Assembly: GCA_029548445.1 (NCBI GenBank)
Contig: JAKPNJ010000326.1
Span: forward strand, 1-49,677
Source: Bacillota bacterium
Lineage (GTDB): Bacteria > Bacillota > Clostridia > Saccharofermentanales > UBA5734
Length of the DNA stretch: 49,677 nt
Direction of reading: 5' to 3'
Part shown: positions 26,641-49,677 of the stretch, piece by piece
Numbering within the stretch: the first letter of the stretch is position 1
Layout: every line of letters starts with the position of its first letter
Translations under genes and position numbers: made by a program
Notes under the pieces: generated by a model
What the model was told of the DNA's origin: nothing
The model's input: only the letters and a program-made list of their open reading frames with translations
The model's database searches: none

Positions 26641-26895
26641 GAGGAAAACCTCCGGAGGCGGTCCGATTGGGAAGGGATCAAGGGGACAGCCGGCTTGGCT
26701 GCATTCCATGAAATCATACCACTTCGGAGGCAAGGAATGAACAGGGGCCTTGTCCGGGAATGTCATGTCATGCGATCACTTCGCACGTCAGTCATTCCCC
26801 TGCACAGGACAGACCCGCAGACGAGAAGGACAAACAGTAAATGCCTGCACAAAAATGTAAGGAATGACAGGGATCGCTGTTCAATCCCGCATCCG

Positions 26896-28167: not shown

Positions 28168-28234
28168 AATCACACCTCCTGGAGCATCAGGCATACAGGC
28201 CTGAATCATCCGATACGACTGAGAACATGAATTA

Positions 28235-28299
28235 ATGGTATCAGCTGGCACGACCCGGCATCCATGTAATTTCCTAACCTTGATTTGCAGGATACTCAC
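28235..28299 (-). promoter_or_regulatory. composite element copy R1 (toward rhaA): GTGAG-N5-TGCA then GTTAG-GAAAT-TACATGGATG, candidate -10 TACCAT
   Basis: Minus strand GTGAGTATCCTGCAAATCAAGGTTAGGAAATTACATGGATG; half-site spacing 21; GTTAG to -35 distance 14. Confidence 0.65.
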
Positions 28300-28350
28300 C
28301 TTTCCTGTCCATATTCGAATGGCCTCGCGGAGAAGCAAGCCGACGGAACT

Positions 28351-28415
28351 GTTAGGATTGTGCAGGAATGGAGTTAGTGTCGTATATGGCACGAGGCAGG
28401 ACCAGGATGTAGAAT
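28351..28415 (+). promoter_or_regulatory. composite element copy R2 (toward solute-binding protein): GTTAGGATTGTGCA...GTTAGTGTCGTATATGGCAC-17-TAGAAT
   Basis: GTTAG at 28351 and 28373; -35 TGGCAC 28387-28392; -10 TAGAAT 28410-28415. Confidence 0.7.
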
Positions 28416-28556
28416 CCAATTGTAGATGGTCCCTGGCAGCATCGGATTGGGAGCGGGATGTCTGCCTTGTTGCCGAATGATGGGGGATCGGTGTTTTCCG
28501 GTCAATGGCACGACGGGATTGCAGCCGTTCGTTTGAATGGGGAATCGGGTGGAGAT

Positions 28557-31382
28557 ATGGATCTGCGGGCCTCACGATGTATCGCCAGTTTGCTGCTGAT
28601 CGGAATCTTGATCGGATGCAGTCCCAATCTTCTGGAAGCAGTCTCCTACGGGGAGTATCTGGCGTTATATGGTGACGAGGATTTCTCGGAACAGGACATT
28701 CTTCTGGATGCTGACGATCTCGGAAATCACTCGAGTGATGTGACGCGAACATCGGAGTATTCCGGACGACCCTGTCTTGTAACCGGGCAGACCGGATTTG
28801 TCGAATACGAGTTCATCGTCCGGGAAGCCGGATTCTTCAACCTGGAAATCGAGTACCATCCAGTTCCGGGCCGCGGCATGCCAATGGTTCGGTCACTCAA
28901 AATCGACGGTGAAATCCCTTATGACGAAGTAAGGGAAATTCGATTTTCCAGGATTTGGGCAGACAAGACTCCCATTTCCCGGGATCGCTGGGGCAACGAC
29001 CTGCGGCCCGACCTGGTCGAGGCACCCGAATGGACCACCAGGACGATTCGTGACGAGATGGGATATTTCAAGGAGCCACTGAAGTTTTTTTTGTCAGAGG
29101 GTCACCATTCGATCCGGCTTGACTCGATCAGCGAGCCATTGGCCATCAGCACTCTGAGGTTTCGACGGTGTCCCGTGATCGTTTCCTATGAGGAAGCATT
29201 CTCCCGCTTCCGGGCATCCGGACTGGAAGATACGTCCGGATTCATTTGCAGGATTCAGGGTGAGAAATCAAAGAACCGTTCCGATCCGTCGATTTATCCG
29301 CTTTCCGATCGAATCTCCGCCGCGACAGATCCCAATGATCCGTCCGCCATTCGCCTGAACACGATGGGTGGCGAGAAGTGGCAGGTAGCCGGGCAATGGA
29401 TCAGTTGGGAGGTTGATGTCCCCGAAAAGGGCCTATACACAATCGGGATACGGGCACGACAGAATGCCATTAACGGCGCATTTTCCATGCGACGGCTATC
29501 CATCAACGGACAGGTTCCCTTTCAGGAAGCGGAGAACATTCGTTTCTCATACAATTCCGATTGGGATCTGTATGTATTGCAGGACAACGGACAACGAATG
29601 CGATTTCCCCTGGAGAAGGGAAAGAACGAGATCCGCATGGAAGTGACATTGGGCAGTCTCGCCGACTTGCTGGAAGAGGTCCAGCGCTCCATTGGAGCTC
29701 TGAATGAAGCATTTCGCAAGATCCTGATGATCACGGGACCCATTCCCGATCCCCTTCGGGATTACCAGCTGCACAGGCAGATTCCGGAGGTCATCACGAA
29801 ATTGGGATCCGAGGCTGAAAGAATCGGCAGAATCCGTGACACCTATATCACCATAACAGGCCAGAAAGGTCAGCAGGCCCAGACACTCGAGCGGATTTAT
29901 GAACAGGTCACCCGCATGGCGGAAAATCCGAATACAATTCCGGAAAGTTTCAACAATTTTCGAAACCAGATCTCGGAGTTGGGTACCTGGCTGTTGGTGT
30001 CAAGATACCAGCCCCTTGAGATAGACTACCTGGTCATTGCGTCTCCGGATCAGGCGATGCCGGATGCCAGGCCTGGCTTGCTGCCGCAGTTCATCTTTCT
30101 CGTACGACAATTCATTTCTTCCTTTCTTACGGATTACTCCAGGATCGGTGATCCCACGGAAGGCGTTTCCAGGATCGAAGTGTGGCTGAATGGATTGACC
30201 AATGGCCGTGACCAGGCCCAGGTCCTTCTGCGCATGGCCAATGATACATTTTACAAACAACGGAACATCAGCGTCGATTTGCGATTGACACCCATCCAGT
30301 CCCTGCTGCCCGCACTGATGGCCAAGCAGGGACCTGACGTCATCCTGACGCTCAGTGCATCGGAGCCGGTCAATTACGCCATCCGGAACGGGGTCGTCAA
30401 CCTGGCGGGATTCGAGGATTTCGAATCAGTCAGCCGGCGGTTCATGCCCAGTGCCCTGGCGCCGTTCGCATTCGATGGCGGAGTGTATGCATTGCCTGAG
30501 GCGCAGACATTTTTCATGCTCTTCCATCGGAACGATATCCTGGACGAGCTTGGCCAGGAGGTTCCCCAGACATGGGATGACGTTGTCTCCCTGATCCCGG
30601 TCCTTCAGAAAAGGAACCTGACCTTCGGATTGCCACAAGCCATGGGACCCTATGTCGGCATCGGGTATTATACGTTCGCCATGTTCCTGTACCAGAATGA
30701 CGGCGAACTCTATCAGGTCGGGAATGCCCGCTCCAACCTGGATTCATTGAGTGCCATCAGGGCCTTCACACAGTGGACACGATTTTATACGGATTATCAT
30801 CTCCCGATCCAATATGATTTCCTCAACCGCTTTCGATCGGGCGAAATACCAGTGGGAATTGCAGATTATAGCCTTTTCAATTACCTGAAGGTTTTTGCCC
30901 CGGATATCCAGGGCCTATGGGGAATGTCGCCTGTACCTGGGATCCTGGAAGCGGACGGTTCCCTCAACCGCTCGGTTCCCGGCAATACAACCGGGGCGGT
31001 CATCGTCAGGTCCACGCCGGACCTGGAGGATTCATGGGAATTCCTGAAGTGGTGGACCAGCACCGATGTTCAGTCCAGGTTCGGAATCGAGCTGGAGATC
31101 ATATTGGGACCGTCTGGCCGATACTCACCTGCAAATGTCGAGGCTCTTCGAAACATCCCATGGACGCGCAGTGAACTCGCTCTGATCGAAGAACAGCTTG
31201 CACAGGTCTTTGGGGTGCCGGAAGTGCCCGGCAGCTACATGACTCCTCGGCTTGTCGATTTCGCGCTGCGGGACGTGCTGAATCGCGGATTGGATCCGGA
31301 TGAGTCCCTGAAGGAAGCCACAGATGCCATCAATAACGAGATCCGCAACAAGTACGCTGAGTTCGGGCATGGGCAGGAGTAG
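28557..31382 (+). CDS. large solute-binding lipoprotein with duplicated N-terminal beta-sandwich-like region
   Basis: Lipobox ASLLLIGILIGCSP; two copies of a SLKIDGEIPYDEVREIRFSRIW / RLSINGQVPFQEAENIRFSYNSDW segment; C-terminal extracellular solute-binding fold (KQGPDVILTLSASEPVNYAIRNGVVNLAGF). Confidence 0.82.
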   Translation: MDLRASRCIASLLLIGILIGCSPNLLEAVSYGEYLALYGDEDFSEQDILLDADDLGNHSSDVTRTSEYSGRPCLVTGQTGFVEYEFIVREAGFFNLEIEYHPVPGRGMPMVRSLKIDGEIPYDEVREIRFSRIWADKTPISRDRWGNDLRPDLVEAPEWTTRTIRDEMGYFKEPLKFFLSEGHHSIRLDSISEPLAISTLRFRRCPVIVSYEEAFSRFRASGLEDTSGFICRIQGEKSKNRSDPSIYPLSDRISAATDPNDPSAIRLNTMGGEKWQVAGQWISWEVDVPEKGLYTIGIRARQNAINGAFSMRRLSINGQVPFQEAENIRFSYNSDWDLYVLQDNGQRMRFPLEKGKNEIRMEVTLGSLADLLEEVQRSIGALNEAFRKILMITGPIPDPLRDYQLHRQIPEVITKLGSEAERIGRIRDTYITITGQKGQQAQTLERIYEQVTRMAENPNTIPESFNNFRNQISELGTWLLVSRYQPLEIDYLVIASPDQAMPDARPGLLPQFIFLVRQFISSFLTDYSRIGDPTEGVSRIEVWLNGLTNGRDQAQVLLRMANDTFYKQRNISVDLRLTPIQSLLPALMAKQGPDVILTLSASEPVNYAIRNGVVNLAGFEDFESVSRRFMPSALAPFAFDGGVYALPEAQTFFMLFHRNDILDELGQEVPQTWDDVVSLIPVLQKRNLTFGLPQAMGPYVGIGYYTFAMFLYQNDGELYQVGNARSNLDSLSAIRAFTQWTRFYTDYHLPIQYDFLNRFRSGEIPVGIADYSLFNYLKVFAPDIQGLWGMSPVPGILEADGSLNRSVPGNTTGAVIVRSTPDLEDSWEFLKWWTSTDVQSRFGIELEIILGPSGRYSPANVEALRNIPWTRSELALIEEQLAQVFGVPEVPGSYMTPRLVDFALRDVLNRGLDPDESLKEATDAINNEIRNKYAEFGHGQE

Positions 31383-31396
31383 GACGGAGGGACAGC

Positions 31397-32353
31397 GTGC
31401 CGAGGTTGAATGATCCGCGATATCTTTCGGGCCCCAATCGCCAAGCCGGCCGACAAACCAGACTTCGGCGGCTTGCGGACACCATCAGGGCCAATCGGTC
31501 ATCGTATCTTTTTATGGCACCATTCTCGGTGGTTTTCATCATATTTACCGTCTTGCCCGTCCTGATGGCGATCTTCTACAGCTTCTCCTACTTCAACCTT
31601 CTGGAGGCGCCCCGATTCATCGGATGGACCAATTACAGGCGGTTGTTGCTGGAAGACGATGTCTTCATCCTTGCCTTGACCAATACAGCCTTGATCGCTG
31701 TTGTACTGGGCCCTGCAGGGTACTTGCTCAGCTTCATGTTCGCATGGTTCATCAATGAGCTTCCACCGAAGATTCGGGCATTCCTGACTCTTCTGTTCTA
31801 TGCCCCTTCCCTGGCCAATATCTATATCATCTGGCAGCTTTTTTTCAGCAGCGATGCATATGGGATCATCAACTCCTACCTGATCAGCCTGGGGGCAATC
31901 TTTGAACCGATCCGATGGCTCCATGACGCTCGAACATTAATGCCGGTGGTCATCATCGTCCTGCTGTGGGCCAGTCTCAGCACCAGCTTCCTGGCATTTA
32001 TCGCGGGTCTGCAAACCATCGATCCGGCATTGTTTGAAGCCGGTGCGGTGGACGGCGTGCGGAACCGCTGGCAGGAACTGTGGTTCATCACGCTGCCCAC
32101 CCTTCGTCCCCAGCTGATGTTCAGCGCCATTATGAGCATTACCGCTTCCTTTGCAGTCGGAGACACGATCACACGCCTGGTGGGATTCCCGAGTCCCAGC
32201 TATGCAGTGCATACAATTATGCATCACCTCCAGGACTACGGTTATATCCGGTTCGATATGGGCTATGCGTGCGCCATCGCGACAATCCTGTTCCTCCTCA
32301 TGGTTTCGGTCAATGAGGTGGTCCAGATGTTCCTGAGGAGAATCGGAAAATGA
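31397..32353 (+). CDS. carbohydrate ABC transporter permease (UgpA/LplB type)
   Basis: SYLFMAPFSVVFIIFTVLPVLMAIFYSFSYFN; EAGAVDGVRNRWQELWFITLPTLRPQ EAA motif. Confidence 0.92.
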   Translation: MPRLNDPRYLSGPNRQAGRQTRLRRLADTIRANRSSYLFMAPFSVVFIIFTVLPVLMAIFYSFSYFNLLEAPRFIGWTNYRRLLLEDDVFILALTNTALIAVVLGPAGYLLSFMFAWFINELPPKIRAFLTLLFYAPSLANIYIIWQLFFSSDAYGIINSYLISLGAIFEPIRWLHDARTLMPVVIIVLLWASLSTSFLAFIAGLQTIDPALFEAGAVDGVRNRWQELWFITLPTLRPQLMFSAIMSITASFAVGDTITRLVGFPSPSYAVHTIMHHLQDYGYIRFDMGYACAIATILFLLMVSVNEVVQMFLRRIGK

Positions 32354-33249
32354 GTCGGAAAGGAATCGGCTTTTCACAGCTTCCGGGACTTCAGTTCCCG
32401 GCCAGGCGGAGAATCAACCGTTCCAGGGCTGGCAATATGCTAGTCATCTTATTCCTTCTGTTCTGCGGAACCTTCACTGCACTGCCCATGTGGTTCGCCC
32501 TGATCACCGCATTGAAGCCCCTGAATGAACTATGGCTCTATCCGCCGAACCTGCTCTTCGTCCGGCAGCCGTCCCTGCGCAATTATGCCGACCTGTTCCT
32601 GCTGATGTCGGAATCCTGGGTTCCATTCACACGCTATGTCTTCAACTCGATCTTCATTACTGTGGCAGGTACCGCCGGGAATGTCATTTTCTCTTCGATG
32701 TGTGCATATCCATTGGCCAAGAAGCGCTTCCCCGGATCAAGGATTTATTTCCGCATCATCGTTTTTTCTCTTATGTTCACCCAGACCGTCACATCCTTGC
32801 CTGCCTACCAAATTATGTCCGGACTAGGATGGATTGATACCTATTTTGCATTACTCGTTCCCGCATTTGCCATGCCCCTTGGATTGTATCTCATGCGTCA
32901 GTTCATGCTGTCCATTCCGGACTCGATCCTGGAATCCGGGCGGATTGATGGAGCGGGTGAATGGAAGCTTTTTTGGATCCTCCTGATGCCGCAGGTCAAG
33001 CCGGCTTGGCTGACGGTGATCATATTCTCGATGCAGGGCCTGTGGAACATGGCATCCAGCAACTATATATATCGGGAAGAACTGAAGACGTTGCCATATG
33101 CCCTGGGACAGATCGTGACGGCTGGATTTGCCAGGGCCGGAGTTGGAGCAGCCGCCACAGTCCTGGTCATGATCGTCCCAATCTCCGTATTCATTTTCGC
33201 GCAGAGCAATGTGGTGGTTACGATGGCCAGTTCCGGGATCAAGGAGTAG
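32350..33249 (+). CDS. carbohydrate ABC transporter permease (UgpE/LplC type)
   Basis: MWFALITALKPLNELWLYPPNLL; ESGRIDGAGEWKLFWILLMPQVKPAW EAA motif; 4-nt overlap with preceding gene. Confidence 0.92.
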   Translation: MSRKGIGFSQLPGLQFPARRRINRSRAGNMLVILFLLFCGTFTALPMWFALITALKPLNELWLYPPNLLFVRQPSLRNYADLFLLMSESWVPFTRYVFNSIFITVAGTAGNVIFSSMCAYPLAKKRFPGSRIYFRIIVFSLMFTQTVTSLPAYQIMSGLGWIDTYFALLVPAFAMPLGLYLMRQFMLSIPDSILESGRIDGAGEWKLFWILLMPQVKPAWLTVIIFSMQGLWNMASSNYIYREELKTLPYALGQIVTAGFARAGVGAAATVLVMIVPISVFIFAQSNVVVTMASSGIKE

Positions 33250-33262
33250 GAAGGAGGAACTC

Positions 33263-34723
33263 ATGCGCAAATCTTCATGGTCCTGGCTGATTTCGGTCCT
33301 GGTTCTTGTGGCCGCTTCAATGGAGGTCCTGGCCTTCGAACCGTATCGGAACTATACGTATGATTATCAGGGTGAAACATGGGGTGAACCGCAGGCATAT
33401 ATTCCAGGCGGCGTCATCCGTGGAGAGGATCTTGGAATCGGAGCCTTCTTGAGTCCGTCGGATATTTTCGTCGCGTCCGACAGAAGAATATTCATAGCCG
33501 ATACCGGAAACAACCGGATTGTCATCCTGACTTCGTCCTTCGCACTCGAACGGACGATCGATTCCTTCAACAACGAAAACATAATTGAGACATTCAACAA
33601 ACCGGAAGGCGTATTTGTCACCGAAGAGGGTACAATCTACATCGCCGATACCGAAAATCGAAGAATCGTCATCCTGGGCTCCGACTATGCCTTGGACCGG
33701 ATCATCCCGGAGCCGGATTTTAAAGTCGATATGCCTCTCATCTACCGCCCGATCCGCATCGTCGTCGACCAGGCAGGTCGCATGTTCATCATTTCCCGTC
33801 ATTTCAACATGGGGATGATTGAGTTGGATGCGACTGGGCAGTTCGACAGTTTCTTTGGTGCAATCACCGTTTCGGCGAATCTTGTCAATCGGCTGTGGCG
33901 ACGGATCGCAACCCAGGAACAGCGCGACAGAATGGTGCAGAGCGTACCGACCGAGTATTCGGGAAATGCCGTGGATCCCGAAGGGTTCGTGTACGGGACC
34001 ATCGGAACACCCAATGCACCCCAACCGATCCGAAAGCTGAATCCAATGGGGGTCGATGTCCTTCGTCGGCTTTCACTGAACCCTCCACAGGGAGACCTGT
34101 CCATATCCTATGATGACAAAGGGTGGCCGGTCCGGTCGTCGCTGACCGACATCTGTCTCGGAGATTACGGTGTATATAGTGTTCTCGATGCGACACGCGG
34201 ACGGATATTTACGTACAGCGAAGACGGAAGCCTCATGTATGTCTTTGGCTCCCTGGGAAATCGTGTCGGGAGCTTTCTCCAGCCCAACGCGATTGACAGG
34301 ACTGCGGACGGGGAGTATCTCGTTGCAGACGGCATTTTGCAGCAGGTTGTCCGATTCCGTCCCACTTCATATGCATCATTGATACACGAGGCCATCAGGG
34401 CCCAGTACCGGAGAGAGTATGCAGAGGCGGAACGCCAATGGATGGAAGTCCTCCGATATACGTCAAAATCCGAAATGGCTTACATCGAGATTGGGAAGGC
34501 TTATTATCGGAAGGGTGCATATGCTTCTGCCATGCGCTACTTCAGGCTGGGCAACGACCGGATCCAATATTCGAAAGCCTTCAAAAAATTCCGGAGGGAA
34601 AGCATGGGTGCGGTGTTCGATGTGGGCATGTCTGCTCTTGTGCTTGTCCTGGTCGGGGTTTTGTACCTTGTCATTCGGAGGCGCCTCGACAGAAGGGGAG
34701 GGAAGACGGATGGAAACGATTGA
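33263..34723 (+). CDS. NHL-repeat (beta-propeller) protein with TPR-like segment and C-terminal TM anchor
   Basis: Signal peptide SWLISVLVLVAASMEVLA; IFIADTGNNRIVIL / IYIADTENRRIVIL NHL repeats; C-terminal ALVLVLVGVLYLVIRRRLDRR. Confidence 0.82.
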   Translation: MRKSSWSWLISVLVLVAASMEVLAFEPYRNYTYDYQGETWGEPQAYIPGGVIRGEDLGIGAFLSPSDIFVASDRRIFIADTGNNRIVILTSSFALERTIDSFNNENIIETFNKPEGVFVTEEGTIYIADTENRRIVILGSDYALDRIIPEPDFKVDMPLIYRPIRIVVDQAGRMFIISRHFNMGMIELDATGQFDSFFGAITVSANLVNRLWRRIATQEQRDRMVQSVPTEYSGNAVDPEGFVYGTIGTPNAPQPIRKLNPMGVDVLRRLSLNPPQGDLSISYDDKGWPVRSSLTDICLGDYGVYSVLDATRGRIFTYSEDGSLMYVFGSLGNRVGSFLQPNAIDRTADGEYLVADGILQQVVRFRPTSYASLIHEAIRAQYRREYAEAERQWMEVLRYTSKSEMAYIEIGKAYYRKGAYASAMRYFRLGNDRIQYSKAFKKFRRESMGAVFDVGMSALVLVLVGVLYLVIRRRLDRRGGKTDGND

Positions 34724-35336
34724 AGCCCTTCGGTTCTCCTTCTATATCCTGTTCCATCCATTCGAAGGATTTTGGGCGGTCAAGTTCGAGCGACGGGGCA
34801 ATTTCCGAACCGCAACGCTGATCGTCTATCTGCTGATTCTTTATAGCATTGTTTCTCGCCAGTGGACAGGTTTCCCATTCAACGCACATGCTGACGCAAA
34901 CGTCAATGTCTTCCGGGAGGCGATCGGTATCTATATCCCGTTCCTGCTATGGTGCATCGCGAACTGGAGTGTGACGACGCTGCTCGACGGAGAAGGCACC
35001 TTCCGGGATATCTATGTCGCGTCGGCATATGCCCTGGTTCCGATTCTCCTGATCGGACTGCCCATGATTCTTGTCAGCAATATCATCGTCCTGGAAGAGA
35101 GTCGGCTATATTCTGCCTTGACACTGGTCTCGGCTGCCTGGTCCTGTTACCTGATGTTCGCGGGACTCATTACGATCCATCAATATACTGTACGACGGAC
35201 TCTCTTCACGATCCTCATCGCGATCGTCGCCATGGCCGCCATATTATTCCTTTTTCTCTTGTTCTTCGCATTGATTCAGCAGGTCCTCAATTTCTTCTAT
35301 ATCGCCTATATAGAAATGACACAGCGCCTGCTGTAG
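34710..35336 (+). CDS. YIP1-like multi-TM membrane protein
   Basis: LFHPFEGFWAVKFERRGNFRTA, IANWSVTTLLDGEGTFRDIYVASAYALVPILL; overlaps previous gene by 14 nt. Confidence 0.75.
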   Translation: METIEALRFSFYILFHPFEGFWAVKFERRGNFRTATLIVYLLILYSIVSRQWTGFPFNAHADANVNVFREAIGIYIPFLLWCIANWSVTTLLDGEGTFRDIYVASAYALVPILLIGLPMILVSNIIVLEESRLYSALTLVSAAWSCYLMFAGLITIHQYTVRRTLFTILIAIVAMAAILFLFLLFFALIQQVLNFFYIAYIEMTQRLL

Positions 35337-35345
35337 CACGAAAGG

Positions 35346-37919
35346 ATGCCGGAGATGCGCCGTACTGTCCAAATACTGGGCCTGGCAATGGCAACCATGA
35401 TCCTGGTTGGATGTCTCCCCAGTGATGGGAAAATTCCCAATCAGCGGACGGACAGGCTCGAGGACTCCGAATTCAGCCTGGCGGTTAAGCAGGCGAACGG
35501 ATTCCTGCCTGTGGAAGAGAACGGGAACCTCATCCTGTCTGTCAATGGAAAGACGGCCGAGATCTCTGTACGGGATCTTTCGTCAGGCAGCATTTGGTAC
35601 TCGAATCCGCGCAATCTTCTGGAGGCGGGAGCATCATTGGATCCCGGACTTGGGCGGGCACTCTCGCAGATCGAGATTACATATGCGGATGCCGGTAATC
35701 ATGTCAATGAAATGAACTCCTACGACGATTCCGTTTCACTGGATCAATACGTGTTCGAAAAAATCGAGGGTGGAATCCGTGTCCTGTATGATATTGGAAA
35801 ACAGGAGAAGATCTTTCTCGTCCCCAGGGTCATCTCCGAAGAACGATTCAGGACAGTCATTCTGTCGAAACTGGACGAATCGGAACAGGAATCCATTCTC
35901 CGCTACTATCAGTTCTTCTCGAAGGGGGCGATCGCGAACAAGGAACTGGAATCCGAACTCATCCGGAAGTATCCCCTTCTCGAGACGGAGAACATTTATG
36001 TCCTGATCGACAACCTTGCGGAATTCGTCATGGAACGGCTGCAGAAAATCACCGAAAAGGCTGGATATCGCCTGGAGGATCTGCAGGAAGACGATCGGAT
36101 GAATGGGGTTGGGCAGGCGGAACAGGCGGTCTCCTTCAGGATTCCCGTGAACTATTGCATCCGGAACGACAGGCTCGAGACCTGGATCACCACGAAGGAA
36201 ATCAGGTATCCCGAGGGCATCAAGCTGCGGGAGATCCGCCTTCTGAGCCATTTCGGAGCCGCCAGCCCTGATGATGAAGGGTACCTGTTCATTCCCGATG
36301 GAAGCGGAGCCCTGATTCATTTCAACAATGGTCGGGCGCGGATGGGACCGTGTCGGATCCCCCTATACGGGCAGGATCCTGCACTTCAAATCAGGGAACG
36401 GCTGACTCCTTGGCTGAAGGCTCATTTGCCGGTCTATGGCATGAAGAAGGGAGACGCGGCTTTCCTGGCAATCCTCGAATCCGGGGACGCACTCGCCACC
36501 ATCAATGCATCCATCAGTGAAATATCCAGTTCCTACAATACAATCTATCCTTCTTTCAGCATGGACCAGAGTCTTGTGATGAAAGTGCCGTACCGTGACG
36601 AGAGTGACATGGACATCTATCAGCGGTCCCGTTTTGACGGCGAACTTCGCGTCCTGTTTTCTTTCCTGGGAGGAAAACAGGCCACATATATCGGCATGGC
36701 GACAGCCTACCGGGAGTATTTGCTGGATACCGGCGAGCTTGCTGTCCATGATCCGGAAGACATGTCCCTTTATATTGATTTTCTGGGGGCGATCCGAAAA
36801 GAGGATGAAATCCTGGGATTCCCATATACAAGGACGACATCCCTTACGACATTCGAGCAGGCTCGGAGCATCGCAGAACAGTTGCAGGCAGGAGGTGTTC
36901 CGGATCTTACCGCAAGATACATCGGCTGGGCCAATGGCGGTATCGAACACAGCCTTATGGATTCAATCGGGATCCAACGCCAACTCGGCTCGAAAGAGGA
37001 TCTTGCCGACCTTATGGCCTGCTTCCGGGATTTTGGATACACGCTTTTCATGGACATTGATATCCAGCGCGTCCATTTTCGGTCACTCTTCAGTCGATAC
37101 AGCCCCCTATTCGACAGTCCCCGGGACATCCTGGGCAAACCGGTTCGGGAACAGATCCTGGATACTGCGACCGGTGAAACAGTTGAACACGTCAGCCTTT
37201 TGTCTCCCTCCCGCTTTCCGGGGGTTGCGGAGAGTGCCGTCGGAAGCCTGAAAAGGGAAGGCATCAACCGCATATCCCTATCGACCCTGGGCGAACTTCT
37301 ATACTCCGACTTCAACTCCGGGCGATATATCGATCGCCAGCAATCCATCCGCTTGGCTCGGCAGGGCATCGAGGCATTCCGCGCAGCCGGGATGGAATTT
37401 GTCATTGAAGGGGCACATGCATATGCCCTTAAGGGCGCAGCCGCTGTCATCGGCCTTCCGGCCACATCCAACGGGTTCTATCTTGCTGATGAGGATGTGC
37501 CATTTTACCAGATCCTTCTTCATGGCATCCTTCCCTACGCCAGCCAGCCCCTGAACCTGGCAGGAGATCTCGAGCGGGAAACGCTTCGCCTTATCGAGAC
37601 CGGAACAGCCCCGCGCTTCACCTGGATGGCCCACATGAATGAGGAGCTGAAGGAATTGAAGGTCGATCGATATGCCGTCTCGTACAGGGAATGGATTGAC
37701 AGCGCGATCAGGATCCATCGGGATGTCGCGAATGCCCTGCTGTCGGTACAGGGATCTCGGATCATTGGTCACGAGCGGGTTTCCGAAACGCTTGCCCGAA
37801 CCGAATACAGCAATGGAGTCTGCATTTACGTCAACTACGACAGCAAGAGCGTTGAAGCGGATGGTCATGCAATTGAGTCGATGGGCTATCTGGTCGTGAC
37901 ACAGCCGGCTGGAGACTGA
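35346..37919 (+). CDS. DUF5696-type lipoprotein (possible distant TIM-barrel hydrolase)
   Basis: ILVGCLPSDGK lipobox; VNGKTAEISVRDLSSGSIWYSNP; LFIPDGSGALIHFNNG; C-terminal barrel-like GINRISLSTLGELLYSDFNSG. Confidence 0.7.
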   Translation: MPEMRRTVQILGLAMATMILVGCLPSDGKIPNQRTDRLEDSEFSLAVKQANGFLPVEENGNLILSVNGKTAEISVRDLSSGSIWYSNPRNLLEAGASLDPGLGRALSQIEITYADAGNHVNEMNSYDDSVSLDQYVFEKIEGGIRVLYDIGKQEKIFLVPRVISEERFRTVILSKLDESEQESILRYYQFFSKGAIANKELESELIRKYPLLETENIYVLIDNLAEFVMERLQKITEKAGYRLEDLQEDDRMNGVGQAEQAVSFRIPVNYCIRNDRLETWITTKEIRYPEGIKLREIRLLSHFGAASPDDEGYLFIPDGSGALIHFNNGRARMGPCRIPLYGQDPALQIRERLTPWLKAHLPVYGMKKGDAAFLAILESGDALATINASISEISSSYNTIYPSFSMDQSLVMKVPYRDESDMDIYQRSRFDGELRVLFSFLGGKQATYIGMATAYREYLLDTGELAVHDPEDMSLYIDFLGAIRKEDEILGFPYTRTTSLTTFEQARSIAEQLQAGGVPDLTARYIGWANGGIEHSLMDSIGIQRQLGSKEDLADLMACFRDFGYTLFMDIDIQRVHFRSLFSRYSPLFDSPRDILGKPVREQILDTATGETVEHVSLLSPSRFPGVAESAVGSLKREGINRISLSTLGELLYSDFNSGRYIDRQQSIRLARQGIEAFRAAGMEFVIEGAHAYALKGAAAVIGLPATSNGFYLADEDVPFYQILLHGILPYASQPLNLAGDLERETLRLIETGTAPRFTWMAHMNEELKELKVDRYAVSYREWIDSAIRIHRDVANALLSVQGSRIIGHERVSETLARTEYSNGVCIYVNYDSKSVEADGHAIESMGYLVVTQPAGD

Positions 37920-37926
37920 GGGGAGG

Positions 37927-39814: not shown

Positions 39815-39846
39815 TGTCCGAATCTCCGACGGCATGGAGATATCAA

Positions 39847-39910
39847 GTTAATATAGTGCATTGATGCGGTTAGCGCCGTACATGGACTTGCAGTTCCCGT
39901 GAAATATAAT
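39847..39910 (+). promoter_or_regulatory. composite element copy R3: GTTAATATAGTGCA...GTTAGCGCCGTACATGGACT-16-TATAAT
   Basis: GTTAA at 39847, GTTAG at 39869; -35 TGGACT 39883-39888; -10 TATAAT 39905-39910. Confidence 0.72.
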
Positions 39911-39990
39911 TTAAGCATGGGAAAGGATTAATATTGCAGTCGCATGTGTTCCGGAACAAGGCCTGCGAATGAAGATGGGGAGGGAATACC

Positions 39991-41415
39991 ATGAAGGCTC
40001 GTACTCGTGGACAGAACGGAAATGGAACAAGAAGCGGATTCGTTATTTGGCTACTACTGTTGCTGCTGATCAGTCTTGTGGCCTGCGAGGCCGCCCCGTC
40101 GGTGACGCCTACCCCGATACCTACCAGTGCTCCAACCGATGCAGCAACTCCGGTTCCAACCGAACCCGGGCGCGAAGTCAAGGATCTTCAGGGCCGTGAG
40201 ATCCGGCTGTTCATTTATGGTTTTGACAGGGCCTGGATGGAAAATGATTTCAACGGAAAGCGAACACTGAATCGGTTCTCCGAGATCGAGACGAAATTCA
40301 ACTGCAAGCTGACAATCCTGTCAGGACCCAAGGACACAACCAATGAAGCCATCTGGGCGACAATCATTTCAGGAAATCCCAGTGCGGACATCATTGACGG
40401 TGCCGGTCCCCATCTGATCGCACAACCGGTCTCCAATGCTTTATATATGGACCTCAACACATTTGGGGTCTTCGATTGGTCCGATGAGAAGTGGGATCCC
40501 AATATCATGGAACTGCTGGAATTCAAGGGGAAGCAATATGGGTGCACGACCCGCGGAGATCTGACCCAGCGATACATGCTGAACAATGTCATGTTTTTCA
40601 ATCGGGGCCTCGTCCAGAGTGCAGGATACAATCCCGATGATCTCTATACCTGGCAGGCAGAAGGTACCTGGACCTGGGAGAAATTCGAGGAGGTTGCCGA
40701 AAAAATTTCCAAGCTCTCAACTGCAGAAACGGAGATTTTCGGTTCCATCAGCAACGATCTTCGTTTGTATTCCGGATTGGTCGCTTCCATGGGAGCCAAG
40801 TGGATCACGAACAACGCGGATGGAATTCCCGAGTTCACGGCAGATGATCCCAAGGCGATGGAGGCTCTTGACTTCTACCTCAATTTGTTCAGGAAGGGGA
40901 TCATACCGGATACGGACGAGTACAATAACCAACGCCTGTTCACATCAGGAACCATCGGATTCATGCCGGACTACCTGGATAAGGTCAACAACAAAACACT
41001 CAAGATCAGTACAATCAAGGATGGCTACGGCCTTCTCATGTTCCCGAAGCACAAGGATGCCGAGGATTATGTTTCGTTCCGCGACTGGTTCGGTTTCTGG
41101 GCCATTCCGACGGGAGCGAGCGAGCCCCGGGACATTGCATTGGTCATCAACTACCTGACGGATCCGATGGAAGGTGCTGCCGACCCACAAGTCATTTTCG
41201 AATCCTATGTCAAGGATGAAGGATCCCTTGCCGTCTTCGACCTCATCCAGGACCGTACCGTCATTTTGCCAACCTTCATGAGCAATCCTGTGTGCCGTTT
41301 GTGGCAGGGACAGCTGGGCTTGATACGCCGCGGCGAGAAGACCCCGGCTGAAGCGATTGCCGAGAATAAGGCGCAATACGAAGCGGAACTCGATGCGATA
41401 TGGAAAATCGGGTGA
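39991..41415 (+). CDS. extracellular solute-binding lipoprotein
   Basis: IWLLLLLLISLVACEAAPS lipobox; NPSADIIDGAGPHLIAQPVSNALYMDLNTF. Confidence 0.88.
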   Translation: MKARTRGQNGNGTRSGFVIWLLLLLLISLVACEAAPSVTPTPIPTSAPTDAATPVPTEPGREVKDLQGREIRLFIYGFDRAWMENDFNGKRTLNRFSEIETKFNCKLTILSGPKDTTNEAIWATIISGNPSADIIDGAGPHLIAQPVSNALYMDLNTFGVFDWSDEKWDPNIMELLEFKGKQYGCTTRGDLTQRYMLNNVMFFNRGLVQSAGYNPDDLYTWQAEGTWTWEKFEEVAEKISKLSTAETEIFGSISNDLRLYSGLVASMGAKWITNNADGIPEFTADDPKAMEALDFYLNLFRKGIIPDTDEYNNQRLFTSGTIGFMPDYLDKVNNKTLKISTIKDGYGLLMFPKHKDAEDYVSFRDWFGFWAIPTGASEPRDIALVINYLTDPMEGAADPQVIFESYVKDEGSLAVFDLIQDRTVILPTFMSNPVCRLWQGQLGLIRRGEKTPAEAIAENKAQYEAELDAIWKIG

Positions 41416-41486
41416 CCACGGCCTGATCCGGGAATCGGAGAAGCCTGCAGACACAAATGGTATCGGGACATCCCGCGGGAGTTGTC

Positions 41487-44198
41487 ATGAAGATGGACGA
41501 TTGTTCGCAAGGTATTGTTGCGCTATGTGATTATTTGCATAATCCGCTCGGCGTCAACAATCCCACCCCCAGTTTTTCCTGGCGCCTGACAGGCTCGGCT
41601 GGCCAGCAATATCAATATCAAATCCTGGTACGTGACTCGAAGGATTGCGGCAGGACGCGATCCGGCAACTGTTGGGACAGTGGCATTGTCCAGGACCATC
41701 GATCGATCGGAATCCCCTATGGCGGCCGCCCCCTGCAGAGTTGTCACCGTTATGACTGGCAGGTGTCTGTCTGGTGTGACGGGGATTCCGAACCCTGCAG
41801 GGGACCCTGGAACCATTTTGAAACTGCCATTCTGCACGATGCTGAATGGAAGGCTCTCTGGATCGAGCCCGCCACCCTGTCGCCAGGTACGACCTCGCTC
41901 ATACGAAGAAGCTTCCAAGTCGACGGCCCCCTGGACAGGGCTCGCCTATACATAAGCGGCTTGGGATATCACTATGTATGGCTGAATGGTCGACGCGTCG
42001 GGGATGGCTGGCTTGAACCCGGCTGGACCAATTACCAGAAAACCGTCCTGTATTGCGTCCATGACATTACGGAGCTGGTTGAGTCGGGTGAAAACGTCCT
42101 TGGTGTCGAAATCGGCGATGGCTGGTATGGACACCAGCATCCCAGTTTCACCCGGTACATTGGTCATCAGCCCAGCTGGCATTCCCATCCGAAGCTCCTT
42201 TTTGAAATAAGCCTGGCTTTTCAGGATGGCAGCTGCATCGTGGTGCCAAGCAGGGCCGATGGAGAAACCGTATCGACTGAAGGACCCACAGTGCGGAACA
42301 GTATCTATGACGGCGAGACCTATGATGCAACTCGAAGGATCGATGGCTGGAATGAAAGATCCCATCGCATGGACTGGAGTCGCTGGAAGCCGGTGATCCT
42401 GTCGGATCCTCCTGGCGGCATTCGAAAAGCACAGATGATGCCGCCCATTCGGACGACGGATATCCTTCCGGCGATTGGTTCGTCTCGTTCCGGACCATGC
42501 AGGACGGTTTATGATTTCGGCCAGAATATGGCCGGCGTTGTGGAGGTCAGGGTATCCGGGAAAAGAGGAGACCGGATCGTGTTGCGACATGCCGAGACAC
42601 TTGCTCCGGAAGGGCGGATCAATCAGGAGAACCTGAGGGGTGCACAGGCAACGGATATTTTTTTTCTGGAAGGCATCGGAGAGGAAACCCACGAGCCTCG
42701 CTTCACTTACCACGGATTTCGGTACGTAGAGGTCGAAGCACCCCAGGAAGTGCAGATTCACGAAATAAGGGCCAAAGTTCTGCATACGGATGTCAGACGA
42801 ACCGGCTTCTTCACATCGAGCCATGAAGAATTGAATCAATTGTATAACGCCGTGATCTGGACCGAAAGAAGCAACATGCACAGTGTCCCGACGGATTGCC
42901 CTCAGAGGGACGAGCGGATGGCCTGGCTGAACGACATGACTGTCCGCTGCGAAGCGGCAAGCATTCATTTCGACCTGGTCCATTTCTATCGAAAGTGGAT
43001 GGACGACCTGGCGGACGAACAGTCTTCTTCCGGATATGTTCCGGACACAGCCCCGTACATATATGGAGGCAATCCTGCCCAGCACATCTCGTCTTGCATG
43101 GTGCTGGTCCCGTGGCTGATGTACCTGAACTACGGCGATGAGACGACCATGAGGAAATTCTATGGGAACATGCGACGCTACCTGCTGTTTCTTGATTCCC
43201 AAACAGCGGAGGATGGCATCCTGAAGGACAAGTACTATGGTGAATGGGCTGCTCCGATTGGTGTGTGTCATGAGGAGATTGCCTGGAGCGCCTTGCCAAA
43301 GGACATCCCATCCGGTCTGGTGACAACAGGGTACCTCTACTATGTTGCACGAACAATGGAGCTGGTTGCCTCCCATCTGGACTACCCGCAGGATGTCAAT
43401 GAATATTCGGAAATCGCGAAAAAGGCGAAAGCCGCCATCAACCTCCGCTACTTTAACCTTGTGGACGGATGCTACTTTCCGGGATCCCAGGGATCCAACA
43501 TTTTTCCCCTCTATCTCGGCATTGTTCCGGATGGCCAGCATGAACGAGTCTTCCGGAATCTGCTGCAAGACCTTGTCAACCATCGACAGTATCATTTGAC
43601 TACTGGCAACCAGATGACCAAATACCTGTTTGAGGTTCTGGACCAGGGCGAAAGGAACGATGTCGCACTCGCCCTTCTGGAGAATAATGATTATCCTGGT
43701 TTCGGGTATATGCTTGCGAATGGTGCGACCACGATTTGGGAACGCTGGGAGAGACTCGAGGGAGGGGGTATGAACTCCCACAACCATCCCATGCATGGGG
43801 CCTTCTCGTCTTGGTTCTACAAGACTCTTGGCGGGATCCGGCTGGATCGTTCGGGGGGCATTCTCCAGGGATTGCGCCTGGAGCCCCAAACGGAAATTGG
43901 CCTTGACTTTGTCGCTGTCGAATATGAGTCTGTCAAGGGCCCGATTCGCATGGCATGGCGAAAGCAGGAAGGCTCGATCCACCACTCCATGGAAATACCC
44001 TGGAACTTGCCTGCCGTTTTTGTCCTGAAACTGCCGGCGAATCCCTTCCGGATCGAGATGGATGGGAGGGAGATCGTCTTCGAAGGTTCCGACGCCAATG
44101 CGCCAGACGGGATCACGTGCCGGATGAATGAGTCAGGGGAAAAATTGATTTTCAGCATTCCATCCGGCCAGCATGACATCGTATTGCTGACAGGATAG
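41487..44198 (+). CDS. alpha-L-rhamnosidase (GH78), no signal peptide
   Basis: LHNPLGVNNPTPSFSWRL; YISGLGYHYVWLNGRRVGDGWLEPGWTNYQKTVLY; DCPQRDERMAWLNDM; GATTIWERWE; MHGAFSSWFYKTLGGI. Confidence 0.93.
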   Translation: MKMDDCSQGIVALCDYLHNPLGVNNPTPSFSWRLTGSAGQQYQYQILVRDSKDCGRTRSGNCWDSGIVQDHRSIGIPYGGRPLQSCHRYDWQVSVWCDGDSEPCRGPWNHFETAILHDAEWKALWIEPATLSPGTTSLIRRSFQVDGPLDRARLYISGLGYHYVWLNGRRVGDGWLEPGWTNYQKTVLYCVHDITELVESGENVLGVEIGDGWYGHQHPSFTRYIGHQPSWHSHPKLLFEISLAFQDGSCIVVPSRADGETVSTEGPTVRNSIYDGETYDATRRIDGWNERSHRMDWSRWKPVILSDPPGGIRKAQMMPPIRTTDILPAIGSSRSGPCRTVYDFGQNMAGVVEVRVSGKRGDRIVLRHAETLAPEGRINQENLRGAQATDIFFLEGIGEETHEPRFTYHGFRYVEVEAPQEVQIHEIRAKVLHTDVRRTGFFTSSHEELNQLYNAVIWTERSNMHSVPTDCPQRDERMAWLNDMTVRCEAASIHFDLVHFYRKWMDDLADEQSSSGYVPDTAPYIYGGNPAQHISSCMVLVPWLMYLNYGDETTMRKFYGNMRRYLLFLDSQTAEDGILKDKYYGEWAAPIGVCHEEIAWSALPKDIPSGLVTTGYLYYVARTMELVASHLDYPQDVNEYSEIAKKAKAAINLRYFNLVDGCYFPGSQGSNIFPLYLGIVPDGQHERVFRNLLQDLVNHRQYHLTTGNQMTKYLFEVLDQGERNDVALALLENNDYPGFGYMLANGATTIWERWERLEGGGMNSHNHPMHGAFSSWFYKTLGGIRLDRSGGILQGLRLEPQTEIGLDFVAVEYESVKGPIRMAWRKQEGSIHHSMEIPWNLPAVFVLKLPANPFRIEMDGREIVFEGSDANAPDGITCRMNESGEKLIFSIPSGQHDIVLLTG

Positions 44199-44254
44199 GA
44201 ATGGATTGCGTTCCGTTTCGGCCACATGTCGGGTGAAAGTGTAGGTTCTGCAGT

Positions 44255-45457
44255 ATGGTCAACGACCGGGCCAATCACATCTGGGTCGATAATTCGCGAC
44301 ACAGGATTCCGGATCACCAGGCACCCCGGCTTCTGGACGAGCAGACTGGCTGGATCCGGAACGAAAGGGATGTCCTGACCGGTTTTTACAGTATGTATCA
44401 ACCGGAAGTCATTGCCGTGGAGGACTCGGAATATCCATACCGCATGTGGTTCATGGGGTGGGCTTACAATCAGCTCAACGAGCCTGCAGTTCTACCGGAT
44501 GGCAGTGATTATCCGGGGTGGCCCGGTGGTGATGCAATTTTTACAGCCCGCTCCAGGAACCTTGACGACTGGGAGGTCTATGCGAAATATTCGAACGGAA
44601 CAGGCGATCCATACTGGGATACAAGGCAGAAAACCACAGACTGGGTTCCGGTACTGACTTGCCAGAACACCTGGTATGACGATTTCCATGTCGGTGATCC
44701 TTCCATTGTATATGACGGCGGTCTGTTCTACATGGCATACTCGGCGATGGGAACCGACAAGCCCAATCCCGAAGAGGAATTTCCCTGGAGCGATAATGCA
44801 GCCTGCATCATGGGTGCGATCTCAACGGATGGAATCCACTGGAAACGAAGCAAGGAACCCTTGCTGATCTGGGAGAACGAATACGGTTTCGACGAAACCA
44901 GATACCGGGATCAATATCGGGGAGGATATCAGCGGCCGTCTCTCATGTATGAGGACAACCGTTGGAAGATATGGTATGACTTTGAGGCAGGACCGACGAA
45001 TCGCGTGTCCATCGGGTATGCAGAAAACCAGGGCGATTTCTTGTCGCCGGATGACTGGCACAGGAAGACCGGTGATGATACACCCCTGATCTCCCATTGG
45101 GTTGATTTTGATGTCGTTCGGATCGGATCGATCTATTATGCATATGGAGATCCCTTCCTGGCGACCTGTGGAATCCATGATCCTCAACTGGTCGACTATG
45201 ATGCGAACTGGTCCAGGCGCCAGATTGTCGAAGCACAATCGTATGACGGGATACATTGGGTGACAACTGGGTATTTCCGGCCTGACCGTGATTGCCCTGC
45301 GAACCAGATCCCGCAGGTCTTTCTGGACCATGATCGACAGCGGGTCTGCCTATTCTATGCGACACAGCGCGGGATCCGGCCGGACGGATCGTATGACTGG
45401 CGATGGAGCGGGTTTCGATATATGACACGCGATCTCTCCTGCTATATCGTTCGGTAA
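44255..45457 (+). CDS. GH43/GH32-like beta-propeller protein, predicted cytoplasmic
   Basis: YPYRMWFMGWAYN, WYDDFHVGDPSIVYDGGLFYMAYSAMGTDKP, repeated propeller blades; no signal peptide. Confidence 0.7.
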   Translation: MVNDRANHIWVDNSRHRIPDHQAPRLLDEQTGWIRNERDVLTGFYSMYQPEVIAVEDSEYPYRMWFMGWAYNQLNEPAVLPDGSDYPGWPGGDAIFTARSRNLDDWEVYAKYSNGTGDPYWDTRQKTTDWVPVLTCQNTWYDDFHVGDPSIVYDGGLFYMAYSAMGTDKPNPEEEFPWSDNAACIMGAISTDGIHWKRSKEPLLIWENEYGFDETRYRDQYRGGYQRPSLMYEDNRWKIWYDFEAGPTNRVSIGYAENQGDFLSPDDWHRKTGDDTPLISHWVDFDVVRIGSIYYAYGDPFLATCGIHDPQLVDYDANWSRRQIVEAQSYDGIHWVTTGYFRPDRDCPANQIPQVFLDHDRQRVCLFYATQRGIRPDGSYDWRWSGFRYMTRDLSCYIVR

Positions 45458-45524
45458 GATTGCCTGCTGTCCTGGACCGTTCCATCCTGGGACCTTTGCC
45501 ATTGCAATGCTAGGAGAATCCTGA

Positions 45525-46763
45525 ATGAAGAGAATCGAACAGACCCTGTCCGTTCCGGTCCTGGACCATTTCGATGTTGTCGTTGCCGGAGGAGGACCAG
45601 CCGGAATCGGGGCTTCAATCCGGTCGGCGCGATTGGGAATGAGGACGCTGCTTGTCGAGCGCTACGGGTTTTTGGGAGGCATGTGGACGGCCGGTTTTGT
45701 CAATCCGATCCATGACTCCTGGAACAAGGATGGTGTCGTCCGGGAACTGATCGGGAACTTGAAGGATCGGAACGCATGGGGTGGATTTTATGGAATGTGT
45801 TTCGATTTCGAATGGATGAAGCGGGTCCTTGACCAGATGATCCATGACAGCGGGGTCTCTCTTCTGTTGCACACATGGATCGCGGATGCCTGGATTCAGG
45901 GAGATGCCATCCGTGGAATCATCGTCGAGAACAAGAGCGGACGAACCGCCATCTCGGCACGGATCGTGATTGACTGTACTGGCGATGGAGATGTCGCCTT
46001 CCATGCCGGGGCGCCCCATTTTCTGGGGCGACCGAAAGACGGACTATGCCAACCCATGTCCACAATTTTTATACTGGGGAATATCGAGTATCGGCAAGGC
46101 GACTCGCATGATGTCGCCAAAATGGTCAGGGATGCCTTGCTGGAATGTCCCGAAGAGTTCGATCCGACATATACCCGCCCCTATATCATCCAGCTGCCAA
46201 ATCCGGGACGGGTTGTGGTGGAGTGGGTGCATGTCCGAAACAAGTTGGGAACGAACGCCGATCAGCTCACATCGGCTGAAATCGAGGGAAGGGCCCACGT
46301 TTTCCGAATCATAGATTTCATGAAAAGACGACTTCCACTCTTCAGGGATGTCGAATTGTTGGCGATCGCACCCCAGATCGGCGTTCGGGAAACCCGGAGA
46401 ATCCAGGGGCTATATACTCTGACACAGGAAGACTGTGTTCATGGCGCCCAGTTCGATGATGGCATCGTCAATGTCGAGTTCAACCTGGATATCCACCAAC
46501 CGGATGGGATCGACCAGGATAACCTGGACGTGAAACCGTACCAAATCCCGTACCGGTGCCTGGTGCCCGTCTCTCTGGACGGGCTCCTGACGGCAGGACG
46601 CTGCATTTCCGGAACCCATGAAGCCCACTCCTCCTACAGGGTCACGGCCAATTGCATGGCCATGGGCGAGGCTGCCGGCATTGCCGCCGCGTTGGCATGC
46701 CAGGGAGGGATGCGTCTTCGGGATATCGATACATCGGAGCTTCGGGCAATCCTGAATATGTAG
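45525..46763 (+). CDS. FAD-dependent oxidoreductase
   Basis: FDVVVAGGGPAGIGASIRSARLGMRTLLVERYGFLGGMWTAGFVNP; LTAGRCISGTHEAHSSYRVTANCMAMGEAAGIAAAL. Confidence 0.88.
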   Translation: MKRIEQTLSVPVLDHFDVVVAGGGPAGIGASIRSARLGMRTLLVERYGFLGGMWTAGFVNPIHDSWNKDGVVRELIGNLKDRNAWGGFYGMCFDFEWMKRVLDQMIHDSGVSLLLHTWIADAWIQGDAIRGIIVENKSGRTAISARIVIDCTGDGDVAFHAGAPHFLGRPKDGLCQPMSTIFILGNIEYRQGDSHDVAKMVRDALLECPEEFDPTYTRPYIIQLPNPGRVVVEWVHVRNKLGTNADQLTSAEIEGRAHVFRIIDFMKRRLPLFRDVELLAIAPQIGVRETRRIQGLYTLTQEDCVHGAQFDDGIVNVEFNLDIHQPDGIDQDNLDVKPYQIPYRCLVPVSLDGLLTAGRCISGTHEAHSSYRVTANCMAMGEAAGIAAALACQGGMRLRDIDTSELRAILNM

Positions 46764-46774
46764 GAGGTCAGTTC

Positions 46775-48520
46775 ATGAAGGTCTTTTCCGGAATTCAGCT
46801 CCAACGCATGCGAATCATCCTCTCCTGCGTCATTTTCCTGATCACGGTCTCCAACACGGCAACCCTGGCCGGTTGTCAGCAGTCTGTCACTGAACCAGTT
46901 CTCGCAAGTCCAACAGCCTGTTGCAGCGCCACTCCCCACAATGCAACAGGAGAGCCAATGGTTTCCGCAATCGTATCTCCTGATTCGGACTGCGCGCAGG
47001 GGCATATTGATGTCGATGACTCTGCCTACGAGATTCCAAACCAGGTGCGTCCGCCTTTGCTGTCAGAGCAGGATGGCTGGGTGCGAAACGAGAGAAATTG
47101 CGTGTCCGGCTTTTACAGCATGTACCAGCCAGAGGTAATCAGGGTCAACGATACCGAGTACCCATATCGGATGTGGTTCATGGGGTGGGCTTACAATACG
47201 AACAACGATCTGGAAATCCTTGGGGATGGGACTGTATATGAAGGATATCCTGGTGGGGATGCGATCTTTCTCGCCCGGTCCAAGGACCTTGATGAATGGC
47301 AAGTGTATAGCCGAAGCAACAACGGATCAGGTGCCATATACTGGGATCGTGCAGAAACCGTTCGAGACTGGGTGCCGGTCCTGACATGCCAGGACGTATG
47401 GTATGACGATTTCCATGTCGGAGATCCATCCATTGTCTATCAGAACGGGACATACTTCATGGCCTACTCCGCCATGGGAACCGACAAACCGGATGATGAG
47501 TACGCATATGCATGGCAGGATGCCGCATACTGCATTATGGGGGCTGTATCAAGCGACGGGATCAATTGGGTCCGCAGCCAGGAGCCTCTCCTGATCTGGG
47601 AAGGAGAGTACGGAGCCGATGAGAATATCCAGCGAAGCGCTGATAACGATACGTACTATGGAATGTACCAACGCCCCTCTTTAATGTATGAGGATGGCAA
47701 ATGGAAGATGTGGTTCGATTACTGGGCAGGCTATCGTTCCGGCAACGGCACTTCCGTCGGGTACGCAGAGAACGACGGTGATTTTCTCGATAGTACCGCA
47801 TGGGATCGAAAAACGGGCGACACCACGCCGTTGCTCCGGCAGTTCGTCGATCTCGATGTGGTCAGGATCGGACGCGTCTATTATGGCTATGGAGATCCGT
47901 TTCTTGGCGCCCATCGGATTGCCGATCCCGAAATCAAGCGCGAGAGTCCCGAATGGTCGATGCGCCAGATCGTCGAGGTCCAGTCCTATGATGGAATCGA
48001 ATGGTCTGTAACCGGATATTTCAGGCCGGACGAAGGGTACCCGGCGAACCAGGTGCCCCAGGTCTTCATTGACCATGATGGCCAGCGGATCCTGCTCTTC
48101 TATGCTACCCAGCGCGGACGAAGGGAGAGCAGCGTTTATGATTGGCGCTGGGATACCCTTCGATACATGTACCGGCCGCTTTCTGCCTATGGGAATCTAA
48201 TTGGAACAGTATCACCCGTACCACCCTCTTCGAGTCAATCGCCTCCCACGCCAACCATTTCCAATCCACTGCCGACCGCAACTCCGGATCCGAGCCAGGC
48301 CGTTACGCTGACCGAAGCGGCGGTTTCTCCTACCTCGATCGGCGAGCCATCCGCAACGACGGGCGCCATGGCAACGCCGACAGAATCCATAAGCGGGAAT
48401 CCCACGGAACCGGTCCGCCCTGCGCGTAACCAGGGCCTGCTTGTGATGCTGATCGCAGTCTCGGTCATGGGCACTGTCCTTGCAGCCATGTACCTGTTGC
48501 GACGAAATCGGACAAACTGA
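46775..48520 (+). CDS. surface-exposed paralog of the 44255 beta-propeller protein with C-terminal TM
   Basis: Signal/lipobox ITVSNTATLAGCQQS; same WYDDFHVGDPSIVYQNGTYFMAYSAMGTDKP core; C-terminal GLLVMLIAVSVMGTVLAAMYLLRRNRTN. Confidence 0.72.
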   Translation: MKVFSGIQLQRMRIILSCVIFLITVSNTATLAGCQQSVTEPVLASPTACCSATPHNATGEPMVSAIVSPDSDCAQGHIDVDDSAYEIPNQVRPPLLSEQDGWVRNERNCVSGFYSMYQPEVIRVNDTEYPYRMWFMGWAYNTNNDLEILGDGTVYEGYPGGDAIFLARSKDLDEWQVYSRSNNGSGAIYWDRAETVRDWVPVLTCQDVWYDDFHVGDPSIVYQNGTYFMAYSAMGTDKPDDEYAYAWQDAAYCIMGAVSSDGINWVRSQEPLLIWEGEYGADENIQRSADNDTYYGMYQRPSLMYEDGKWKMWFDYWAGYRSGNGTSVGYAENDGDFLDSTAWDRKTGDTTPLLRQFVDLDVVRIGRVYYGYGDPFLGAHRIADPEIKRESPEWSMRQIVEVQSYDGIEWSVTGYFRPDEGYPANQVPQVFIDHDGQRILLFYATQRGRRESSVYDWRWDTLRYMYRPLSAYGNLIGTVSPVPPSSSQSPPTPTISNPLPTATPDPSQAVTLTEAAVSPTSIGEPSATTGAMATPTESISGNPTEPVRPARNQGLLVMLIAVSVMGTVLAAMYLLRRNRTN

Positions 48521-48568
48521 ACTCGCCAGGGCAGCTGGTCATTCCGGTCAACATCACAGATAGACAAG

Positions 48569-48633
48569 GTTAGGATTATGCAAGGAACTGGTTAGGCGAG
48601 TACATGGACTTTGTACGTGGCGGATTCTACAAT
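48569..48633 (+). promoter_or_regulatory. composite element copy R4: GTTAGGATTATGCA...GTTAGGCGAGTACATGGACT-17-TACAAT
   Basis: GTTAG at 48569 and 48591; -35 TGGACT 48605-48610; -10 TACAAT 48628-48633. Confidence 0.72.
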
Positions 48634-49500: not shown

Positions 49501-49578
49501 CTCATAGGAGTTCCGGATCGATGGATATGGGTACTTCTACTCGAGTTTGACAGTTTGAAGGGATAGCAAAATCCCGGA

Positions 49579-49617
49579 AGCCCCTGTAATCAATAGGATT
49601 ACAGGGGCTTTTTTTGT
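49579..49617 (+). terminator. rho-independent terminator
   Basis: AGCCCCTGTAATC-AATAG-GATTACAGGGGCT followed by TTTTTTTG. Confidence 0.85.
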
Positions 49618-49677
49618 CCGTAAGTTTCCGCAATAATAGTGACACGGTATATATATAGAAGCTTGTAATATGAATAA

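Follow-up and report, generated by a model that had tools for sequence, protein, structure and literature searches.

A tandem-repeat motif predicted to be the shared operator of a rhamnoside island in a Bacillota bacterium

The window, meaning the whole stretch of 49,677 nucleotides that was analysed, is the complete contig C119 of a Bacillota genome assembly (GCA_029548445.1). Its right-hand part holds a rhamnoside island of four transcription units: rhaA, a transporter operon, an operon encoding a solute-binding protein (SBP) and a rhamnosidase, and a gene for a surface protein with an NPTTG sorting-like signal (Table 1). The locus raises the question of whether these four units answer to a single regulator, and if so, to which one.

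The GC content is 0.67 over the first 26 kb of the window and 0.53 from 28 kb onward. With its 53% GC inside 67%-GC DNA, the island therefore looks acquired. The sharp fall lies within 26000-28000, at rhaA, which marks the left edge of the acquired-looking island.

We found that one motif heads every unit of the island. A sequence-only reading of this DNA had proposed four tandem sites, R1 on the minus strand and R2, R3 and R4 on the plus strand, and all four are present at the coordinates it gave. From rhaA to the end of the NPTTG gene, the only gaps longer than 100 bp are those that hold R1/R2, R3 and R4. The sites thus fill every such gap, and the motif stands in front of all four transcription units.

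Table 1. Predicted sites, genes and insertion-sequence end in and beside the island. Positions are those of the window unless a contig is named.
Feature	Position	Strand	Half-sites (first base)	Promoter-like elements	Aligned sequence	Unit served or remarks
R1, tandem activator site (predicted)	28259..28299	-	distal GTGAG-N5-TGCA from 28299; proximal GTTAG-N5-TACA from 28278; 21 bp apart	-35-like TGGATG 28264-28259; -10-like TACCAT 28240-28235; predicted start ~28228	GTGAGTATCCTGCAAATCAAG-GTTAGGAAATTACATGGATG	serves rhaA
R2, tandem activator site (predicted)	28351..28392	+	GTTAG-N5-TGCA 28351; GTTAG-N5-TATA 28373	TGGCAC 28387-28392; -10-like TAGAAT 28410-28415	GTTAGGATTGTGCAGGAATGGAGTTAGTGTCGTATATGGCAC	serves large SBP/transporter operon
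R3, tandem activator site (predicted)	39847..39888	+	GTTAA-N5-TGCA 39847; GTTAG-N5-TACA 39869	TGGACT 39883-39888; -10 TATAAT 39906-39911; predicted start ~39918	GTTAATATAGTGCATTGATGCGGTTAGCGCCGTACATGGACT	serves SBP/rhamnosidase operon
R4, tandem activator site (predicted)	48569..48610	+	GTTAG-N5-TGCA 48569; GTTAG-N5-TACA 48591	TGGACT 48605-48610; -10 TACAAT 48628-48633; predicted start ~48640	GTTAGGATTATGCAAGGAACTGGTTAGGCGAGTACATGGACT	serves NPTTG surface protein
rhaA, L-rhamnose isomerase	26896..28167	-				Pfam RhaA, E 7e-157; ATG start 28167 with GGAGG
Transporter operon	28557..39814	+				Pfam SBP_bac_1, BPD_transp_1, NHL, Yip1, DUF5696; order: large SBP, two permeases, NHL, Yip1 and DUF5696 proteins, two more permeases
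Second operon	39991..48520	+				Pfam: SBP, alpha-L-rhamnosidase (41457-44198), FAD oxidoreductase (45525-46763); also unknown-family proteins at 44255-45457 and 46772-48520
Secreted protein, C-terminal NPTTG sorting-like signal	48728..49426	+				from the translation
IS1634-family left end	49540..49677	+				matches contig C67 bases 1-138 exactly (138 bp)
Candidate AraC gene	C301:218-1057					279 aa, 45% GC; GTG start, GGGGAGG before
TIM-barrel protein	C301:1106-1888					after candidate AraC gene

Each site consists of two half-sites in direct repeat. As had been reported, these lie 22 bp apart in R2, R3 and R4 and 21 bp apart in R1, close to two helical turns. Within a half-site, the first and second boxes start 10 bp apart, one helical turn, in 8/8 cases. 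The claim that every half-site reads GTTAG-N5-TRCA held for GTTAG in 6/8 and for TRCA in 7/8; it failed, by one base each, in the distal first boxes of R1 (GTGAG) and R3 (GTTAA) and in the proximal second box of R2 (TATA). The purine of TRCA is not random: the second box is TGCA in 4/4 distal and TA(C/T)A in 4/4 proximal half-sites.

The sites stand directly before promoter-like elements. In all four, a TGGNNN hexamer begins exactly 14 bp past the proximal GTTAG, and a -10-like hexamer follows within the stated 16-18 bp, at 17 bp in R2-R4 and at 18 bp in R1. The proximal second box is immediately followed by the TGG hexamer, which places each site at the -35 element in the manner of a class II activator. 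Matches to the -10 consensus were 4/6 (R1), 5/6 (R2), 6/6 (R3) and 5/6 (R4). Of all TGGs in the island, approximately 6.5% are followed at 16-18 bp by a -10 matching in at least 4/6 positions, 0.9% by one matching in at least 5/6 and 0.2% by one matching in 6/6. The -35 hexamers (TGGACT, TGGCAC and TGGATG) are poor, and activator-dependent promoters tend to have poor -35 hexamers. CATG occurs exactly 5 nt past the -10 in R1, R3 and R4 (C at 28229, 39917 and 48639), and may plausibly be a shared start-site sequence.

Could the sites be alike by chance? The boxes agree between sites at 19-20/21 positions in pairwise comparison, but this identity is partly by construction, since the boxes were defined on R1-R4 themselves, and a genome scan is therefore the fairer test. 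We scanned 3,026,451 bases (3.03 Mb) in 359 contigs for the two-half-site pattern with up to 3 mismatches. Only R2, R3 and R4 (22-bp spacing) and R1 (21-bp spacing) were found in the whole genome, and a reversed-pattern control gave 0 matches in the same scan. Searched for by itself, the half-site GTTAG-N5-TRCA has 5 copies in the window, each of them within R1-R4, and none in another 687 kb of the genome. Simulated islands contained 0 sites at up to 2 mismatches, compared with the 4 observed. The sequence-only reading had asked whether the motif is just as common in coding sequence or in unrelated DNA; by the genome scan, the half-site counts and the simulations, it is not. The proximal half-site plus -10 alone was also tried as a search pattern and set aside as unspecific at up to 3 mismatches (control 10 vs 3).

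The likeness of the sites might instead be a by-product of recent promoter duplication, with no shared regulation. R2 and R4 have distal half-sites that are alike over approximately 19 bp, as such copying would leave. Outside the boxes, though, the four promoters are only 24-35% identical, at or near background, against 90-95% within the boxes. This contrast indicates selection, not recent copying, and largely refutes duplication, which can hardly be the explanation. No cre-like site was present in the island promoter gaps, and no Rfam RNA in the island.

Apart from this genome itself, none of the genomes scanned, which were those of 58 relatives, 391 members of the class and 399 of the phylum, had the 22-bp form of the motif at up to 2 mismatches, and 1.95 Mb of homologous loci likewise yielded no copy. 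There is thus no phylogenetic footprint among the genomes scanned for the 22-bp form, which counts against the reading of R1-R4 as operators, as does the 21-bp spacing of R1 where the other three sites have 22 bp. Upstream of homologous large SBPs, close direct repeats showed no clear enrichment at 20-23 bp, in a search whose threshold of 12/15 identity would miss the R1-R4 half-sites themselves (~9/15 shared).

What kind of protein might bind such sites? LytTR-type response regulators recognise GTT-centred, 9-bp direct repeats at 21-22 bp spacing, with conserved bases before the GTT. R1-R4 could be read as boxes of this type (GTT-containing 9-mers in direct repeat, ~21 bp apart), and GTTAG fits the LytTR core. 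Such a reading is highly improbable: positions -3 to -1 before GTTAG carry 0.25-0.7 bit, the TRCA 10 bp further on is conserved, and the genome encodes one LytTR protein (a 159-aa frame on another contig, C82) vs 52 of the AraC family. We consider it very unlikely, too, that R1-R4 are operators of a DeoR-family repressor of the RhaR type. DeoR-family rhamnose regulators do use direct repeats (PMC3870299), but with a published periodicity of 10-11 bp, whereas here the boxes that lie 10 bp apart differ (GTTAG vs TGCA) and the period is 21-22 bp. Moreover, the sites are upstream of the -35 and not over the promoter, and a position upstream of a poor -35 suits an activator.

The layout matches that of AraC/XylS-type activators. 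AraC-family rhamnose regulators of Bacillales, Bacteroides and Enterococcus bind direct repeats with 21-bp periodicity, with sequences unique to each group (PMC3870299). R1-R4 resemble these in layout, as direct repeats of ~21 bp upstream of rhamnose genes, and differ in having 22 bp in 3/4 sites and 21 in one, and in a predicted regulon that takes in the entire island (double ABC transporters, rhamnosidase and surface protein). At Pm, XylS binds direct half-sites whose two boxes are separated by 6 bp, so that they start 10 bp apart (PMC5481539). Here, too, there are two direct half-sites, each with two boxes of 4-5 bp starting 10 bp apart; the boxes themselves are GTTAG and TGCA in place of the TGCA and GGTA of XylS, and the inducer class differs. 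In Caldicellulosiruptor bescii, AraC sites upstream of promoters were interpreted as activator sites (PMC8579813). The direct-repeat AraC and two-component AraC regulons described there likewise have tandem repeats before candidate carbohydrate transporter promoters; unlike in our island, rhamnose genes were assigned to DeoR-family regulators. The sequence-only reading had offered RhaS as an example of the layout. This example is unfit, because the half-sites of E. coli RhaS and RhaR form inverted repeats (PMC3870299) and those of R1-R4 are direct; the likeness to that system is the AraC-family control of rhaA-type genes, here predicted. The mechanism is thus an already known kind of sugar control, of which the R1-R4 regulon is a new, well-supported example.

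We looked for the regulator beyond the window. The window breaks off inside an IS1634-family element, the first 138 bp of which form the window's end. Contig C67 carries a full copy (1-1861) with a 531-aa transposase of the IS1634 family (E 2e-115). Contig C301 opens with the other end of the element, its bases 1-138 being identical to C67 1724-1861. The 5-bp target duplication TTCTA is found before the element in the window (49535-49539) and after it in C301 (from base 139). Other known flanks of the element (C208 left, C67 right) pair with neither TTCTA flank, and any one position carries TTCTA with a frequency of only 2.3e-4 to 4.6e-4. The GC content of C301 is 44-55% for approximately 1.9 kb and then 67-70%, so that the start of C301 looks like the far edge of the island. 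C301 probably continues the window across IS1634. Against this, the link between C119 and C301 rests on one 5-bp duplication, and a target preference of the element could raise its chance.

Copies or ends of the element lie on four contigs: the window, C67, C301 and C208 (right end). Two other continuations of the window were rejected. C67 shares the left end of the element, but the sequence to the right of its copy lacks a match to the target duplication in the window; C265, which has an AraC gene at its contig end, shares no end sequence with the window.

C301 encodes an AraC-family protein that is most likely the regulator of R1-R4, judging by its placement and domains. Its start codon lies 79 bp past the end of the element, and no other AraC gene is placed in the island. 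Its domain matches are AraC_binding, HTH_18 and HTH_AraC, with two matched helix-turn-helix units and no receiver domain among them, as for a one-component regulator. The idea of a YesN-like regulator is thus unsupported, the best candidate being a one-component AraC protein, whereas a gene outside the window, as had been suggested, fits: it is probably next door, across IS1634. The region upstream of the candidate gene contains no R-type site (best, 6 mismatches/18).

A different AraC protein may be the one that recognises R1-R4, and the AraC-type reading of the sites is independent of the C301 candidate. The genome has 52 AraC-family genes, any of whose products could bind. Among those considered were the low-GC C153:15668 and C265:42433 and the gene at 6665-7522 of the window; of all proteins encoded in this genome, the product of C153:15668 (53% GC) is nearest to the C301 protein. 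Yet C153:15668 immediately precedes an SBP-permease cluster of its own, and C271:10141 immediately precedes an 807-aa gene, which suggests that both are local regulators. None of these genes is in the island, and no GTTAG/TGCA tandem is near them. We regard a regulator from elsewhere in the genome as somewhat unlikely. The low-GC AraC genes on C153, C144 and C271 were rejected as candidates; they sit among other genes and are without such sites. There is no sign that the AraC gene in the window serves the island. It is on the plus strand in the 67%-GC part, approximately 20 kb off, between genes for an FG-GAP protein and an HAD hydrolase.

Taken together, the sites, their uniqueness and their coverage of every unit support the proposal that one regulator, using tandem AraC/XylS-type half-sites beside the -35, co-activates all island units. 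We think it quite probable that R1-R4 are operators of one such activator of the whole island, with the C301 protein as the most likely one. In this model, half-sites two helical turns apart would present the same face of the DNA. A single AraC-family monomer would contact the GTTAG and TGCA/TACA boxes of each half-site through its two helix-turn-helix units, and the dimer, bound with its proximal half-site abutting a poor -35, would recruit RNA polymerase. Rhamnose, or a rhamnoside taken up by the cell, would probably act as inducer. The candidate gene was probably cut off from the island by the IS1634 insertion. A further proposal is that the island arrived by horizontal transfer as a self-contained regulon, with its own activator and a private operator code at every promoter, and that IS1634, 79 bp upstream of the activator's start codon, alters or silences the entire island in this lineage; this we consider unlikely.

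As a predicted regulon, 22 kb of little-studied genes become one unit of control, for which a candidate regulator can be named and the boxes given exactly. Shared control would also connect the conserved NHL/Yip1/DUF5696 transporter cassette with the use of rhamnosides by this bacterium. The cassette is widespread, and most homologous loci keep its gene order; among the papers searched, none treats the cassette or mentions DUF5696 alongside ABC transporters. A search with the window's large SBP gave 12 matches in this genome, its own included, and the closest large SBPs among the genome contigs scanned are approximately 45% identical.

Several further observations concern the genes themselves. 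The stretch 28557-41415, which is the cassette including the second SBP, is conserved over many Bacillota and some other lineages. A second rhaA, of 66-67% GC and without the motif, is split over the contig ends C302:3-878 and C296:1-366. Plasmid-borne relatives of the C301 AraC protein are <34% identical among the best listed, and one that was inspected adjoins an alpha-galactosidase. The NPTTG protein scored 21.8 bits against the EF0750-like LPXTG model, below the cut-off. The products of 44255-45457 and 46772-48520, which have no Pfam match and flank the FAD oxidoreductase in the rhamnosidase operon, are clearly related to each other, and the latter is apparently secreted and membrane-anchored.
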